A DNA stretch of 64,000 nucleotides from Bacillus sp. PK3_68 (GTDB taxonomy: Bacteria; Bacillota; Bacilli; Bacillales; Domibacillaceae). Positions 2,441 to 16,929 of the stretch are shown here, piece after piece (the first letter of the stretch is position 1; each line of letters opens with the position of its first letter). Location of the stretch: NCBI RefSeq assembly GCF_003600835.1, contig NZ_NQYC01000001.1, positions 2,250,001 through 2,314,000 on the forward strand. Reading direction: 5' to 3'. Both the position numbers and the translations under genes were made by a program. Below the pieces are notes generated by a model, which had not been told where the DNA came from, made no database searches, and was given only the letters and a program-made list of their open reading frames with translations.

Positions 2441-2458
2441 ATAGGGGCATCCCCCTAT
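2441..2458. promoter_or_regulatory. G-tract palindrome in cyd promoter region
   Basis: On the minus strand this reads ATAGGGGGATGCCCCTAT, an inverted repeat about 80 bases before the 26-codon ORF that leads the cyd operon. Sixteen of 18 bases match the site before sqr at 7735-7752. The form (AT ends, G-tract, C-tract) resembles operators of CsoR/CstR-type repressors; the binding protein is not encoded in the window, so its identity is inferred. Confidence 0.5.
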
Positions 2459-2508
2459 CCCTCTCGCGTTTTTGACTACTTTATGAAGGTTTGGAGCGAA
2501 AGCATAAA

Positions 2509-2545
2509 AAGAGGATGTTCCTATGTTGCTTTGGAACATCCTCTT
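2509..2545 (-). terminator. Terminator of the two-component operon
   Basis: A 13-bp perfect inverted repeat (2509-2521 and 2533-2545) lies 21 bases past the response-regulator stop. Read on the minus strand it is followed by TTTTTAT, a standard intrinsic terminator that separates the regulator genes from the cyd operon. Confidence 0.85.
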
Positions 2546-2566
2546 GAACACGATAGCCAGCGTTCT

Positions 2567-3202
2567 TTAATGAATATCGGAAAAATAGTTTTTAATGCCA
2601 TATTGAATCATTTCATGTTTTTGCTTCAAATCCAGCTTGTTCATAATATTCGCTTTATGATTTTCGACGGTTTTTGCGCTAATATGCAGCTTTTCAGCGA
2701 TTTCTTTATTCGTATAACCGAGCACCGTCAGCCGCAAAACCTCCTGCTCTCTTAGTGTTAACGGGGAAGACGGCTTTTCTTTTTCTTTCATCATCTTGTC
2801 AATTTGCTCTTCGCTTAAGTCGGTTCGGTAATAACGGTGCCCTTGATGCACATTATAAATTGCTTCATACAAATCACTCCCTTGGCTTTTCTTTAAAATA
2901 TAGCCATGGGCTCCCGACTGGATCGCCTTGCGAATATACGCCTCTTCATCGTGCATCGTTAACAGCACGACTTTCATAGTTGGCTGCTGCTGAAGAAGCT
3001 GTTTCGTTGTTGTAAACCCATCCAGTCCATTCGGCATGGAAATGTCCATCAAGACGACATCCGGCTCTTTCTGCATCGCCAGAACGAGCGCTTCGTGACC
3101 GTCTCCTGCATCAGCCGCCACTTCAATATCCGCATAGCTTTCTAACAGTAAAATGATCCCTTTCCTGATTAAATCATGATCATCAACTACCATGACTTTC
3201 AT
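2567..3202 (-). CDS. NarL/LuxR-family response regulator
   Basis: Two-component response regulator of 211 aa. The N-terminal receiver domain (about 1-120) has the acidic pair DD at 7-8 and the phosphoacceptor Asp53 (VLMDISMP); the C-terminal LuxR-type helix-turn-helix (about 145-205) has LTLREQEVLRLTVLG and KEIAEKLHISAKTVENH. I place the start at 3202, where GGGGAAGAG precedes ATG; an ATG seven codons upstream lacks a ribosome site. It overlaps the sensor kinase gene by 20 bases. Its target is unknown; the bd oxidase operon directly downstream is a natural candidate. Confidence 0.9.
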   Translation of the reverse strand: MKVMVVDDHDLIRKGIILLLESYADIEVAADAGDGHEALVLAMQKEPDVVLMDISMPNGLDGFTTTKQLLQQQPTMKVVLLTMHDEEAYIRKAIQSGAHGYILKKSQGSDLYEAIYNVHQGHRYYRTDLSEEQIDKMMKEKEKPSSPLTLREQEVLRLTVLGYTNKEIAEKLHISAKTVENHKANIMNKLDLKQKHEMIQYGIKNYFSDIH

Positions 3203-4235
3203 CGATCTCTTCCCCGCTTTCATCTAACATCATTTTCGCTAAAATGGTTGTTCCTTTACCCGGTGCGGATTCAATATGAAAATGGCCGTTCAGCTGCTCG
3301 ATCCGCTCACGCATATGTTCTAGCCCGAGCCCGCCTTTGGCCTGTTCTAGATCAAAGCCCTTCCCATCATCATGGACTTCTACAATCAATCGCCCTTGAT
3401 CTTCTACGAGCAATAAATAGACTTTTTTCGCTTCTGCATACTTCACGATATTATGAAGACCCTCTTGTATAACTCGGTAGACATTGATCTCCACTGCCGA
3501 GGGCAACCGGCCGCTAATATTGGTCTTCAGTTCAATCGATAAAGAAGAAGTGGATTGAACTGTATGGATTAACGTTTCCAACGCGGAAACGAGTCCCAGC
3601 CCGTCCAAGCTCGTCGGCCGAAGCTGGTGGGAATACGCTTTAATGTCTGACATCGCGCGCTGGAGCTCTGCCCGCACCTCATTAACATAATCATGAAGCC
3701 GCTCATCAGCCTGAATGGTCGATTCAATCGCCTGCAATGCAACAGAGATAGTGTAGAGCGACTGACTGATTCCATCATGAAGCTCATGAGCCAGCCGCTT
3801 ATGCTCCCGCTCCTGCACCTCGATCAAACGCTTAATCATCATTTTCGACAGCCGGACTTCCTCTTCCTTTTGCCGCAGGGTTTGATCGCGCAATACGAGC
3901 AAATACTCTTTTTCTTGGTGGTCCTGATCCTGGTAAATCAAAGCCGTACTCATCTCGACGTCAAGCTTTTTTCCGTGGTAAACAGGCATTTGCGATAAAA
4001 AATATGGCACTTCATTGCGTGCAATTAAATAACAGCGGTTTTCGCCCGCTTCAGCCTTTCGTTCCTTACAATAAGAGCAAAAAGGAACATGCTCGCCGAC
4101 CGCCCAGCCAGTGAGCCGACCGGCTGCAGGGTTCATCAGCAAGATTTCACGGTTTTGATCCATAACGATAATGCCGTCTTGAATATATTCAAATATTTGA
4201 TTCAAGTATTTTGGGTCTACCGGATACTGTTCCAT
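3183..4235 (-). CDS. Soluble PAS sensor histidine kinase with NreB-like cysteines
   Basis: Cytoplasmic sensor kinase partner of the NarL-type regulator, without membrane segments. I choose ATG at 4235 (MEQYPVDP) because AAAGGA lies eight bases before it; a GTG ten codons upstream has none. The N-terminal PAS domain (about 10-120) is followed by a HisKA_3 dimerisation domain (HELAHELHDG type motif, phosphoacceptor His) and a C-terminal ATPase with N, G1 (DDGKGFD) and G2 (GGLGLEHM) boxes. In the PAS domain three cysteines have the spacing C-x2-C-x11-C. This equals the first three iron-sulfur ligands of the oxygen sensor NreB, but the fourth position is Ile. Oxygen, nitrogen-oxide or sulfur sensing is plausible but not shown. 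Confidence 0.85.
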   Translation of the reverse strand: MEQYPVDPKYLNQIFEYIQDGIIVMDQNREILLMNPAAGRLTGWAVGEHVPFCSYCKERKAEAGENRCYLIARNEVPYFLSQMPVYHGKKLDVEMSTALIYQDQDHQEKEYLLVLRDQTLRQKEEEVRLSKMMIKRLIEVQEREHKRLAHELHDGISQSLYTISVALQAIESTIQADERLHDYVNEVRAELQRAMSDIKAYSHQLRPTSLDGLGLVSALETLIHTVQSTSSLSIELKTNISGRLPSAVEINVYRVIQEGLHNIVKYAEAKKVYLLLVEDQGRLIVEVHDDGKGFDLEQAKGGLGLEHMRERIEQLNGHFHIESAPGKGTTILAKMMLDESGEEIDESHGS

Positions 4236-4279
4236 TGGCCTGATCCTTTCATTTTTCTTTTCCACTATTGTAAGCGAAA

Positions 4280-4310
4280 AACCGCCGGTGATTCACGTCT
4301 GCCGGCGGTT
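4280..4310 (-). terminator. Terminator of the sqr-cstB operon
   Basis: GC-rich hairpin with arms AACCGCCGG (4280-4288) and CCGGCGGTT (4302-4310). On the minus strand it ends in TTTTTCGC. It lies about 115 bases past the cstB stop and before the sensor kinase gene. Confidence 0.75.
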
Positions 4311-4425
4311 TCGTTTATTCTTTTATGTCGGTCCTCCCAAGGAGAAGATTGATTTCCGCTTCTTGATCAACGATATGCTTTCTTAAAACTGATTGAACAA
4401 GCAACTGTCTTGTAGGAAAGAACCG

Positions 4426-5835
4426 TTATTTTACGAGCTGTGGCACGTCTTTCTTCCAGCGTGAAAAGCCCCCTAAAAGGTTTTTTATCTCTTTGAATCC
4501 ATTCGCCTGTAAAATGCTCGCCGCAATCGCAGACCGCACACCTGAACCGCATTGAATAAGAAGCGGCTGATCTTGCGGCACTTCCTCTAAGCGATCCGGC
4601 AGTGTGCCGAGCATCATGTGAACGGCTCCCGGAATATGTCCGGCGTCCCATTCTGATTGATTCCGGACATCCAGTACAGCCACTTCTCCTTTTTCTACTG
4701 CTTCCTGCATTTCCACAGGCTCTACATTCATATAACTTTCTAATTTAGAAGCTTGAACTAAAGCGGTTTTCACATTCATATAGCCTTCTATACGGTCGAT
4801 CCCAATGGAGCGAAGCCCTATTAATATCTCAGAAAGTTGACCTTCCTCAATCAACAGATAAAGCGGGGCTTCATAGTTCACGAGCCAGCCAGCCCAGTTT
4901 GTAAATGATTTATTAAACGGAATATTTACCGTTCCTGGAATATGTTCTTTAGCAAATTCAGCCGCCGAACGCGTATCAATAACCATATCTTGCTTAAGCC
5001 ATTCATGAAGGGCAGAAGCATCCATCTCTTCAACAGGCACCGTCACATTCTTCAGCAAAGCCGGACCAACTTTGTTCACATGCTTCATGATAGCGAAATA
5101 CTTAGGAGGCTCAGGCTGGCCATCGAGCAAAGCTTTCACAAAAGCCGCTTCATCGTTACATTTCATTGCCCAGTTAAACATCTTTTCATAGCCGACTGTC
5201 GAGGAGGGAATCGCCCCTAATGCTTTACCACACGCGCTTCCCGCTCCATGAGCCGGCCATACTTGTAAATAGTCAGGAAGCTGCTTAAAGCGTTGAATAG
5301 AGGTAAACATTTGCTTTGCCCCTTGATCTGCTGTTCCGCTGTACCCTGCTGCTTTTTCCAATAAGTCGGGGCGGCCCACATCACCGACAAACACAAAGTC
5401 GCCGGTAAAAATCCCCATTGGACGATCGGCACCGCCGCCGTGATCTGTCAGGATAAAAGAAATGCTTTCTGGTGTGTGCCCCGGTGTATGCATCACTTCC
5501 AATGTGAGGTTTCCGACTTTAAACGTATCACCATCTTTCAACAGCTGATGATCAATCCTTTCAAGATTTTGGTATTTCCAATTTTCGTCCCCTTCATCGG
5601 ATACATACATTTTTGCCCCAAACCGTTCGGCTATCTCACGAGAACCTGCCACAAAGTCCGCATGGATGTGTGTTTCTGCTGCAGCTGTCAGCTTCAGCCC
5701 TTCTTTGTTAGCCGTCTCGACATATTGTTCAATATTGCGGGATGCATCAATAACAAGTGATTCCCCTGTTTTTTGACAGCCGATTAAATACGAAGCATGA
5801 GCTAGCTTTTCATCATAAAAATAACGCAATAACAT
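4426..5835 (-). CDS. cstB: Persulfide dioxygenase-rhodanese fusion (CstB-like)
   Basis: Multidomain sulfur enzyme of 469 aa. Residues 1-240 are a metallo-beta-lactamase-fold persulfide dioxygenase with metal-binding motifs THIHAD (55-60), HTPGH (116-120), D152 and PAHG (194-197). Residues about 270-365 are a rhodanese-like domain without an active cysteine. Residues about 370-469 are a rhodanese with active-site Cys429 in QCGSGVRS. This is the order in Staphylococcus CstB, which turns persulfides made by sulfide:quinone reductase into thiosulfate or sulfite. I use ATG at 5835, with AGGGAGA nine bases before it, rather than a GTG three codons upstream that would sit on the ribosome site. Last gene of the operon. 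Confidence 0.9.
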   Translation of the reverse strand: MLLRYFYDEKLAHASYLIGCQKTGESLVIDASRNIEQYVETANKEGLKLTAAAETHIHADFVAGSREIAERFGAKMYVSDEGDENWKYQNLERIDHQLLKDGDTFKVGNLTLEVMHTPGHTPESISFILTDHGGGADRPMGIFTGDFVFVGDVGRPDLLEKAAGYSGTADQGAKQMFTSIQRFKQLPDYLQVWPAHGAGSACGKALGAIPSSTVGYEKMFNWAMKCNDEAAFVKALLDGQPEPPKYFAIMKHVNKVGPALLKNVTVPVEEMDASALHEWLKQDMVIDTRSAAEFAKEHIPGTVNIPFNKSFTNWAGWLVNYEAPLYLLIEEGQLSEILIGLRSIGIDRIEGYMNVKTALVQASKLESYMNVEPVEMQEAVEKGEVAVLDVRNQSEWDAGHIPGAVHMMLGTLPDRLEEVPQDQPLLIQCGSGVRSAIAASILQANGFKEIKNLLGGFSRWKKDVPQLVK

Positions 5836-5862
5836 GTCCGTCACTCTCCCTGTTTTCTGCTT

Positions 5863-6414
5863 CTATTGAGTCTTTTTAGGCAATGTTTCAATCAGTGCTT
5901 GCACATAAGATAATACTCGCTGCACCGATGGATCTTTCATCCACTTTAATACGGTAAAGAGAGAAATATGCTGTGCATTCGCCTCTGCTTTTGCTTGTAC
6001 TTCTTCCCATAGAGATTGACCTTTTTCCACTTTCTCACGAATCGGTTCTGTATATTCTTCCACACTATTTTGCAAATAAGCGATGGACTTTTCATCAGCT
6101 AATACATTTTCCACAAATCGAACAACTGTCTCCAGCTTTTCCATCAGTTCTAACAATAGAGGCAGTTTCTCCAGCAAACGAAGGGCAGCTTCCAGTGTGT
6201 TCATATCGATATTTATACCGTCAATCTTCTTTTTCACTTTTTCCATCGTATGTTCATCTTCCAGAACAGATTGTCCAAAGGTTAATAACTGGTCTGCCTG
6301 CTCTATCTTTGCTGTTAAATCGGGCAGTTTTTCAATCAGCTTTTGAAGAGAAGCCTGCACTTCCGGTTTGTTTAACTCATCGACCCAGTCCTGTTTTGAA
6401 ATTGAAACCGTCAT
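5863..6414 (-). CDS. DUF1641 family protein of the sulfide operon
   Basis: A 183-aa mostly helical, acidic protein with heptad-like leucines (LRLLEKLPLLLELMEKLE), resembling DUF1641 proteins, which in Bacillales often sit next to sulfide:quinone or other FAD-dependent oxidoreductases. No catalytic motif is visible; an accessory or partner role to the neighbouring reductase is inferred from position only. The start at 6414 is preceded by GGAGAG; upstream in-frame codons overlap the end of sqr and have no ribosome site. Spacing is 23 bases from sqr and 27 bases to cstB, so the three form one transcript. Confidence 0.8.
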   Translation of the reverse strand: MTVSISKQDWVDELNKPEVQASLQKLIEKLPDLTAKIEQADQLLTFGQSVLEDEHTMEKVKKKIDGINIDMNTLEAALRLLEKLPLLLELMEKLETVVRFVENVLADEKSIAYLQNSVEEYTEPIREKVEKGQSLWEEVQAKAEANAQHISLFTVLKWMKDPSVQRVLSYVQALIETLPKKTQ

Positions 6415-6437
6415 TTCTCTCCACTCCCTTCCCGCTG

Positions 6438-7631
6438 TTACATAATCCCTTTCAACATGCCATCCCAATACATAATGGGCAGCAAATCTTTTTTCATCAT
6501 ATACATACTGCGTCTTTCTTTCGCCTGATTGATCGGAAAAGATTCGCTCGGTATTTTTCCATATTTAAACTCCGCTAATACTAAGCTATTGTAGCCTGTT
6601 ACAAGTGGACAAGAGCTGTACCCATCATATGCTGCCTTCATCGGCTCTTCTTTTATGAGGGCAAGCATATTTTCCGCTACAACTGGAGCCTGCTTACGGA
6701 TCGCTGCGCCGGTTTTGGACGTTGGCAGATCCGCACAATCGCCAAGGGCAAACACATTTTCATACTTATGGTGCTGAAGTGTATTTGGATGAACATCGAC
6801 CCAGCCTGCTTCCCCTGCTAAAGAGCTTTCACGGATAAAGCCAGGCGCGCGCATGGGCGGAGTGACATGGAGCATGTCGTATTTCACTGTTGTTTGCTTT
6901 TTCGTATCTATATTTTCAAATACCGCTTCTTTTTGGGCTGACCGGATTTCAACTAAGTTTTCACGAAAGCGGGCATCAATTTTTTTGCGGGCCACCACTT
7001 TTTCTAATGTTTCACGGTATTTCTGAACATCAAAAATCGCCGGGTTGGCCGAACCAAAAATAACGTTTGTCTGTTCTCTAAACCCCGTGCGGCTAAAATG
7101 ATCTTCCGCCAAATACATAATTTTTTGCGGAGCTCCCCCGCATTTTACTGGTGTGGCCGGATGCGTAAACACGGCATTGCCGCCTTTAAATGTGCGGATC
7201 GCTTCCCACGTATAATCTGTATACTCATACGAATAGTTGCTGCAGACTCCGCCTTTGCCGAGGGCTTCTCTCAAGCCTTTCACGCCCTCCCAGTGGATTT
7301 CGATTCCAGCTGCTACAACTAAATAATCGTAAGAAAGAGACTCCCGATTCGCTAACTGAATCTTATTTTCTTCAGGAGTAAAAGAAGCAACGGCTTGTTG
7401 TATCCAAACGGCTCCTTCCGGAATAACCTCCTCCATGCTGCGTTCTGTATCTTCTTTCTTGGCTGCTCCCCCGCCAACTAACGTCCACAGCGGCTGATAA
7501 TAATGCTTATCTGCTGGATCAATAATGGCTACATCGTTCGCAAGCGATTTTATTCCATTCAACAATCTAGCAGCGGTGCTAATGCCTGCTGAGCCCCCGC
7601 CAACGATGACAATACGATAGTGTTCACTCAT
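6438..7631 (-). CDS. sqr: Sulfide:quinone oxidoreductase
   Basis: FAD-dependent enzyme of 397 aa that oxidises sulfide to persulfide and passes electrons to the quinone pool at the membrane. The N-terminal dinucleotide fold is IVIVGGGSAG (7-16), and the second FAD motif is ALGDCADLP (295-303). Likely redox cysteines are Cys164 (PVKCGG) and Cys341 (SSCPLVTGY); Cys130 is also present. The start has GGGAGGAAG upstream. It leads an operon with a DUF1641 gene and cstB, the set controlled by the persulfide sensor CstR in staphylococci, and a matching palindrome lies in its promoter. Confidence 0.9.
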   Translation of the reverse strand: MSEHYRIVIVGGGSAGISTAARLLNGIKSLANDVAIIDPADKHYYQPLWTLVGGGAAKKEDTERSMEEVIPEGAVWIQQAVASFTPEENKIQLANRESLSYDYLVVAAGIEIHWEGVKGLREALGKGGVCSNYSYEYTDYTWEAIRTFKGGNAVFTHPATPVKCGGAPQKIMYLAEDHFSRTGFREQTNVIFGSANPAIFDVQKYRETLEKVVARKKIDARFRENLVEIRSAQKEAVFENIDTKKQTTVKYDMLHVTPPMRAPGFIRESSLAGEAGWVDVHPNTLQHHKYENVFALGDCADLPTSKTGAAIRKQAPVVAENMLALIKEEPMKAAYDGYSSCPLVTGYNSLVLAEFKYGKIPSESFPINQAKERRSMYMMKKDLLPIMYWDGMLKGIM

Positions 7632-7733
7632 CTTTATCTTCCTCCCAGTTAGAATAATGACAAGTACAAGCTCTGTCCCTGTGAGTAACTCTGTGCTTAT
7701 ATATTCATGATAGAAGATACTTATTCGTGATAC

Positions 7734-7753
7734 TATAGGGGGTTCCCCCTATA
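7734..7753. promoter_or_regulatory. Perfect G-tract operator before sqr
   Basis: A perfect 9-bp inverted repeat, TATAGGGGG and CCCCCTATA, separated by two bases. Read on the minus strand, its right end merges with a possible -10 (TATAGT), and the 17 bases before that hexamer hold nearly the whole palindrome. A protein bound here would block the promoter. The pattern suits a CsoR/CstR-type repressor; no such gene is in the window. Confidence 0.6.
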
Positions 7754-16864: not shown

Positions 16865-16929
16865 GTTTCTATACTTTTGTGAATGTAATATGTTAAATAT
16901 AACTAAAAAGTCATCTGTTGTAAAGGTTT

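Follow-up and report, generated by a model that had tools for sequence, protein, structure and literature searches.

A predicted NreC operator shared by sulfide oxidation and cytochrome bd gene sets in Bacillus sp. PK3_68 and related Bacillales

Gene organization of the locus

In a 64,000-nucleotide stretch of the Bacillus sp. PK3_68 genome (RefSeq assembly GCF_003600835.1, contig NZ_NQYC01000001.1, positions 2,250,001–2,314,000), referred to here as the window, two minus-strand gene sets, one for sulfide oxidation and one for a cytochrome bd oxidase, are each preceded by a similar 18-bp palindrome. The first set is ordered as the site at 7752–7735, a 22-nt spacer, the hexamer TATCAT and the genes sqr, DUF1641-like, cstB/PDO-like, nreB-like and nreC-like. 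The second is ordered as the site at 2458–2441, a 22-nt spacer, TATACT, a 26-codon open reading frame (ORF), cydA, cydB and a TauE/SafE gene. Gene order and strand suggest that each set is expressed as one transcript. A preliminary description of this DNA had placed the sites in the promoters of cyd and sqr-DUF1641-cstB operons. Pfam supports these genes apart from DUF1641, which scores below threshold; the description left unmentioned both the kinase and regulator genes that lie between the sites (2567–4265) and the TauE/SafE gene that follows cydB just beyond the window.

The sqr gene (6438–7631, minus strand, as are all genes described here) encodes a sulfide:quinone reductase-like flavoprotein (SQR; PF07992), for which the best NCBIfam model is type III SQR with a score under that model's cut-off. 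The DUF1641-like gene (5863–6468) matches PF07849 with an E value of 0.0055, below the cut-off, and the cstB/PDO-like gene (4426–5844) encodes a metallo-beta-lactamase plus rhodanese protein (PF00753, PF00581). The nreB-like gene (3183–4265) encodes a histidine kinase with a PAS domain containing Cys63, Cys66 and Cys78, followed by HisKA_3 and HATPase domains. The nreC-like gene (2567–3223) encodes a response regulator with a receiver domain (PF00072) and a LuxR-type helix-turn-helix domain (PF00196) that shares 55% identity with the B. paralicheniformis protein and is the proposed binder of both palindromes. A PAS-HisKA_3 kinase and a LuxR-type regulator thus adjoin sqr and pdo, the arrangement of a sulfide-type NreBC pair. 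The window species is a congener of Bacillus badius NBRC 15713, and its NreB is 86% identical to that of another genome of this genus (G021, locus L115; G and L numbers denote genomes and loci). A hairpin with a T-run after nreC (2505–2545), recognized by eye and missing from the mechanically derived list, is a likely terminator ahead of the cyd unit.

The cyd unit begins with the small ORF (2282–2362), whose 26-residue product, MKKRETAYFWTAMMVALGSILSLMMI, appears hydrophobic by eye and is a candidate CydS/CydX-like subunit. The cydA gene (933–2270) encodes cytochrome bd subunit I (PF01654, E value 1.9e-135). The cydB gene consists of two overlapping frames of 151 and 195 amino acids, a 5' part at 488–943 (PF02322, E value 9.5e-25) and a 3' part in another frame at 1–518 that runs off the window, with the interruption located within ~488–545. 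In the two relatives checked, G021 and G005, the same region reads through as one uninterrupted frame, 343 and 345 codons long, respectively, and the break in cydB is either a real interruption or an assembly error. The TauE/SafE gene matches PF01925 with an E value of 1.2e-45. The genome holds three cydA matches, and the window copy alone has a site with up to two mismatches at its promoter. The third match (L199; G000:C1:2560848-2562092) has a single TAG codon in frame inside the matched region.

Palindromic sites and promoter geometry

Read on the minus strand, positions 2458–2441 are ATAGGGGGATGCCCCTAT and positions 7752–7735 are ATAGGGGGAACCCCCTAT, in agreement with the preliminary description; they are the predicted NreC-type operators of the cyd unit and of the sqr operon, respectively. 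The perfect motif ATAGGGGN4CCCCTAT occurs at these two places, 5.3 kb apart, and nowhere else in the 4,832,247-bp genome, so that the genome scan proposed earlier found a motif that is not scattered. With up to two mismatches, 15 places in the whole genome match, compared with five for a reversed control pattern. At the 13 places other than the window sites, TAnnnT is absent at +22 in both directions. The occurrence of the two sites is beyond chance.

Each site ends 22 nt upstream of a −10-like hexamer, TATACT (2418–2413) in the cyd promoter and TATCAT (7712–7707) in the sqr promoter. The earlier suggestion that the second site overlaps a possible −10 was therefore mistaken. This geometry was compared among sites with no more than one mismatch located 20–450 bp before sqr, cydA, tauE or cstB, which gave 79 unique promoters from 82 (80 sites in the 80 NreB loci introduced below and the two window sites). 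TAnnnT is found at +22 from the site end in 85% of the 79 promoters, and the runner-up offset in the range 10–39 reaches 13%; all 19 cydA or tauE promoters have it at +22. No −35 conservation was found, the mean match to TTGACA being 2.0 of 6 positions over 78 unique sequences. When the −10 hexamer is taken as −12 to −7, each window site would occupy approximately −52 to −35, the place expected of an activator that contacts RNA polymerase. Because this place is fixed and lacks a −35 hexamer, an activator appears to fit better than a repressor.

Two other candidates were rejected. Rex control of the cyd and sqr promoters was set aside as TTGTGAAN4TTCACAA, with up to three mismatches, is unmatched below window position 16918. 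An RNA element was set aside as Rfam matches the window only once, with an epsC RNA (RF01735; 54759–54876, minus strand; 121.5 bits).

Co-occurrence of the motif with NreBC

The comparison across Bacillales used 80 NreB loci, the best 80 of 285 relatives, which amount to 1.40 Mb with flanks of up to 9 kb around NreB and include several metagenome assemblies. The identity cut-offs were above 40% for sqr and above 50%, on the same strand as the kinase, for cydA. Sites were counted within 450 bp upstream of sqr and within 300 bp upstream of cydA and tauE. The 80 loci contain 58 perfect and 32 one-mismatch sites, compared with none and one, respectively, for the reversed pattern. The site lies directly upstream of sqr in 58 of 70 cases (40 perfect, 13 with one and 5 with two mismatches). 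Among the remaining 12, four sqr genes stand behind a cstB gene that itself bears the site (three with one mismatch, one with two), so that 62 of 70 sqr genes have a site before either sqr or cstB. At the same tolerance of two mismatches, the reversed pattern was found at 1/70 sqr, 0/17 cydA and 1/44 tauE genes.

At the family level, the perfect motif and NreB occur in the identical 7 of 24 genomes, and these seven also hold this sqr. Since sqr and NreB are inseparable within the family, sqr genes without NreB were sought at the order level. The order-level survey covered 397 genomes, with 4–5 candidates scored per genome and NreB called at E ≤ 1e-60, such that "without NreB" means none at this threshold. 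TAGGGGN4CCCCTA is present in 14 of the 21 genomes with NreB and in 24 of the 376 without it (Fisher p 3e-11, relatedness ignored). This sqr occurs in 32 of the surveyed genomes, 15 of which, with 18 sqr genes, are without NreB; in stretches covering 2 kb upstream, no site with up to two mismatches was found for any of the 18. Two of the 18 stretches (L205 and L207) contain a partial kinase match of 35–39% identity at their edge. Of the 24 genomes that have the motif but not NreB, five have it between cydA and an orphan regulator gene, as described below, and no common promoter architecture was found in the other 19. In the stretches examined of two genomes with a nar-type NreB, G590 and G454, TAGGG-N2..9-CCCTA is unmatched. 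Taken with the location of the gene between the two window sites, this distribution makes NreC the likely regulator.

A few further sites follow no clear pattern. In G098, a genome with an NreB locus, one perfect site (L103, 4949–4964) lies ~65 bp before a peroxiredoxin-like gene and another lies inside an sbcD-like gene, both genes being named by eye; in G070, a perfect site follows a PDO-like gene.

Recurrence at cytochrome bd genes

All 17 cydA genes in the 80 loci belong to units headed by a site (5 perfect, 8 with one and 4 with two mismatches). Ten have the site within 300 bp (4 perfect, 4 with one and 2 with two mismatches), and in seven cydA follows tauE as a tauE-cydA pair, with the site at tauE (1 perfect, 4 with one and 2 with two mismatches). 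The count omits L130, with 30% identity and a two-mismatch site 88 bp upstream; any cydA is present in 18 loci. Of 17 NreB loci inspected for it, 12 have a short ORF, itself preceded by a purine-rich stretch, ahead of cydA. For tauE, a site lies within 300 bp of 14 of the 44 genes, and the other 30 lack one. The order cydA-cydB-tauE characterizes the window group, and tauE-cydA is found in Lysinibacillus, Siminovitchia and Bacillus sp. HF117_J1_D. In Brevibacillus invocatus (L163), cydA stands ahead of nreB with its own one-mismatch site, and in Bacillus sp. FJAT-42315 and B. ectoiniformans a second site is followed by tauE alone.

At the class level, 33 further loci were compared, at least seven of which appear to coincide with loci among the 80. 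Any site with no more than one mismatch is present in 8 of the 33. With up to two mismatches, the site stands directly at 8 of 15 sqr genes (above 50% identity) and at cstB for one more. It stands at 2 of 7 cydA genes: in L257 with one mismatch and TAAAGT at +22, and in L263 with two mismatches and a −10-like hexamer off by one. The sites, the promoter geometry, the co-occurrence with NreBC and the recurrence at cyd described so far were computed directly from the genomes.

Two distant three-cysteine NreB-type kinase genes (L256 in G668 and L252 in G660) are oriented divergently to a different type of cydAB, and L256 has an SQR-like gene between the kinase gene and cydAB. In neither locus does cydA have an upstream site with up to two mismatches.

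Proposed regulon

From these observations we infer operon membership, binding by this NreC, a sulfide signal, cyd induction and the physiology outlined here. It is probable that phosphorylated NreC (NreC~P), under the control of a sulfide-sensing NreB, acts through the two operators on sqr-cstB-nreBC and cydAB-tauE and thereby joins sulfide oxidation, the bd oxidase and sulfite export in one regulon. As in the B. licheniformis relative, the PAS-domain kinase NreB would sense sulfide and phosphorylate NreC. NreC~P would then bind TAGGGG-N4-CCCCTA adjoining the −35 region of two promoters that possess a −10 and lack a recognizable −35, and activate them. The sqr promoter would drive sqr, the DUF1641-like gene, cstB, nreB and nreC, and since it would also drive nreB-nreC, the system would be self-amplifying. 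The cyd promoter would drive the small ORF, cydA, cydB and tauE, yielding a bd-type quinol oxidase and a sulfite exporter. SQR would feed sulfide electrons into the quinone pool, and the bd oxidase would hand them to oxygen while sulfide inhibits the heme-copper oxidases. CstB/PDO would produce sulfite, which TauE would export. The shared regulon of the preliminary description thus stands insofar as a common operator is found at the bd oxidase and sulfide oxidation units and recurs in relatives; the CstR control assigned to it is not supported.

Several observations weigh against this proposal. The loci are related, so that the counts given above are not independent. Eight of the 70 sqr genes in the 80 loci have no site at sqr or cstB, and 7 of the 21 order-level genomes with NreB lack the strict site, four of them having one with a single mismatch and three (G290, G368 and G386) having none. 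At the class level, 6 of 15 sqr genes and 5 of 7 cydA genes are without a site with up to two mismatches. The motif and the cyd link therefore hold in nearer relatives, fade or change with distance, and are not shared by every NreB relative. Another genus includes five genomes (G091, G175, G225, G329 and G150; loci L276, L277, L278, L279 and L110) in which the motif lies between cydA and a divergent gene for an orphan LuxR-type regulator and no NreB was found. Here TAnnnT is present at +22 on the cydA side in four of the five, and the GerE domain was tested in one; in G269, a sixth genome of this genus, the strict motif was not found. The bd oxidase of the window strain may itself be inactive because cydB is frame-interrupted in the assembly. 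Two further points come from B. licheniformis: the induction by sulfide through NreBC was seen in a yrkD deletion, with little or none upon addition of NaHS when yrkD was present, and the dissociation constant of NreC~P was only 9.8 μM (PMC9918477).

The NreB sensor and its signal

Cys63, Cys66 and Cys78 are invariant in all 81 NreB proteins compared (the window protein and the 80 relatives), with I, L, M or V at position 81. The oxygen-sensing Fe-S (iron-sulfur) NreB has four PAS cysteines; with the staphylococcal spacing, three are found here. Among the 33 class-level loci, 29 have the three-cysteine form and four have CX2CX11CX2C. Two of the four-cysteine loci (L258 and L261) adjoin genes read by eye as narH, narJ and narI, and in a third (L259) the kinase ORF is preceded, at ~60 bp, by a site with one mismatch. 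A sensing mechanism can be put forward tentatively, with a rather low probability: the NreB family would be an Fe-S or other-metal PAS sensor in which one ligand cysteine is missing and sulfide occupies the open coordination site, and the NreC regulon would include a dedicated bd oxidase, encoded by one of the three cydA copies of the genome and perhaps equipped with a small subunit of its own, as the terminal oxidase for SQR electrons. This mechanism fits the three cysteines invariant in 81/81 proteins and the gene neighbourhood. Alternatively, NreB may be a thiol-based or heme-based sensor. Heme has been suggested for NreB in a report that calls the sensing mode open and does not, in its available part, discuss the cysteines of NreB (PMC9918477); the three invariant PAS cysteines thus offer a sequence lead on this question.

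The same cysteines bear on a different reading of the signal, in which the sites do bind NreC and the signal is oxygen or redox state, such that cyd and sqr would be switched on at low oxygen and not by sulfide. The bd oxidases are often low-oxygen enzymes, and the window NreB retains three of the four cysteine positions, while the four-cysteine locus L259 with its site before the kinase ORF shows the motif beside an NreB of this kind. The staphylococcal NreB is itself an Fe-S oxygen sensor (PMC4601167, PMC8774646). However, cysteine is found at the fourth position in none of the 81 NreB proteins, an sqr-like gene is present in the stretch of 75 of the 80 loci, and NreBC of B. licheniformis responded to sulfide (PMC9918477). 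An oxygen or redox signal is accordingly regarded as improbable.

The question of CstR/CsoR control

The preliminary description attributed the sites to a repressor of the CstR/CsoR type, inactivated by persulfide so that sqr-cstB and cyd would be derepressed together. In S. aureus, CstR does control sqr and cstB genes (PMC8148161), and runs of at least four G or C occur in the sites of most CsoR-RcnR homologues (PMC10318464). The search for CstR/CsoR-family genes, also proposed in that description, found four in the genome, one of them CstR-like and beside a second CstB-like gene. This gene lies ~227 kb away from the window sites. The operon concerned (L195, 6196–9583; G000:C1 ~2.024–2.028 Mb) is a second sulfur operon with two tandem CstR-type elements and contains CstB-like, glutaredoxin-like, CstR-like, rhodanese-like and TauE-like genes, named by eye.

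The CstR/CsoR operator has the pattern TACCC...GGGTA, with a C-tract followed by a G-tract. Elements of this pattern are linked to the CsoR and CstR genes of this same genome: TACCCTACAGGGGTA lies between a CsoR-like gene and a copA-like gene 0.8 kb after it, and TACCCTACAGGGTA and TACCCTATGGGGTA immediately precede the likely start of the second CstB. The window sites have the opposite polarity, a G-tract followed by a C-tract, and do not match the pattern, and TAGGG-N4..8-CCCTA is unmatched in 15 kb around the CstR-like operon. A cstR homologue is present in the flanks of 5 of the 80 NreB loci. Moreover, the motif is missing at the 18 sqr genes that have no close NreB, and in its place a TACCC...GGGTA element is present in four of the 18 loci. 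The fixed place at approximately −52 to −35 without a −35 hexamer likewise points to an activator. CstR/CsoR control of the two promoters is thus very unlikely.

A mechanical scan lists 7738–7750 (plus strand) as terminator-like, which might suggest that the palindromes serve the upstream genes as terminators or as RNA hairpins. This reading was rejected as having next to no likelihood: separate hairpins with T-runs were seen by eye upstream of each site, the sites lack a following T-run on the minus strand, and neither the fixed 22-nt spacing to the −10 nor the repeated occurrence ahead of sqr, cydA, tauE and cstB would be expected for terminators.

Comparison with known systems

A sulfide-resistant bd oxidase and sulfide-induced cydAB are known from some Gram-negative bacteria. 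What the locus adds is the prediction of a joint regulator, operator, promoter geometry and set of targets in several Bacillales genera. In the literature searched, largely short of full texts, no bd oxidase controlled by NreC in connection with sulfide was found, and at the same partial depth neither was a regulator acting directly on both sulfide oxidation and a resistant oxidase. In Acinetobacter baumannii, cydAB is induced by sulfide and a link between SQR and CydAB through the quinone pool has already been proposed (PMC7315123), and control of bd oxidases by CydE (PMC6096048) and by CioR (PMC11837568) has been reported. These cases resemble the window locus in that the bd oxidase is sulfide-induced or sulfide-protective; they differ in that the available parts of these reports describe no single regulator acting on both sqr and cyd via one operator.

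The cst operon of S. aureus shares with the window locus the sqr and cstB-type targets (PMC8148161), and a CstR-like gene exists elsewhere in the window genome. It differs in that CstR is a repressor acting at elements with a C-tract followed by a G-tract and is unlinked to the window locus.

NreABC of Staphylococcus carnosus and S. aureus, which responds to oxygen and nitrate, is similar in its pairing of a PAS kinase with a regulator. The staphylococcal NreC site is TAGGG-N4-CCCTA, relative to which the window spacing would be two bases wider. Binding of the staphylococcal NreC to a GC-rich palindrome has been described (PMC8139620, PMC5694512). Unlike the staphylococcal system, the window NreB has three PAS cysteines and not four, its neighbours are sulfur genes and not nar/nir, and no nreA was seen at the window locus.

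The closest comparison is with B. licheniformis MW3, in which NreBC responds to sulfide (Tang et al. 2023, PMC9918477). That NreBC controls sqr-pdo in response to sulfide is thus already known from this species. There, too, a homologous kinase and regulator lie beside sqr and pdo, and NreC~P acts at the sqr promoter region: it binds the nreC-sqr intergenic region, and mutation of the predicted site abolishes binding (PMC9918477). In B. paralicheniformis, B. glycinifermentans and B. swezeyi, GTAGGGGAGTTCCCCTAT is located between nreC and sqr, and MW3 is likened to the window through these relatives. The strings "cyda" and "bd oxidase" have no matches in the main text of PMC9918477. The window locus differs in that nreBC stand at the end of the sqr operon and the cluster contains no CstR/YrkD gene. 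It differs further in having a second site, which heads the bd oxidase-tauE unit.

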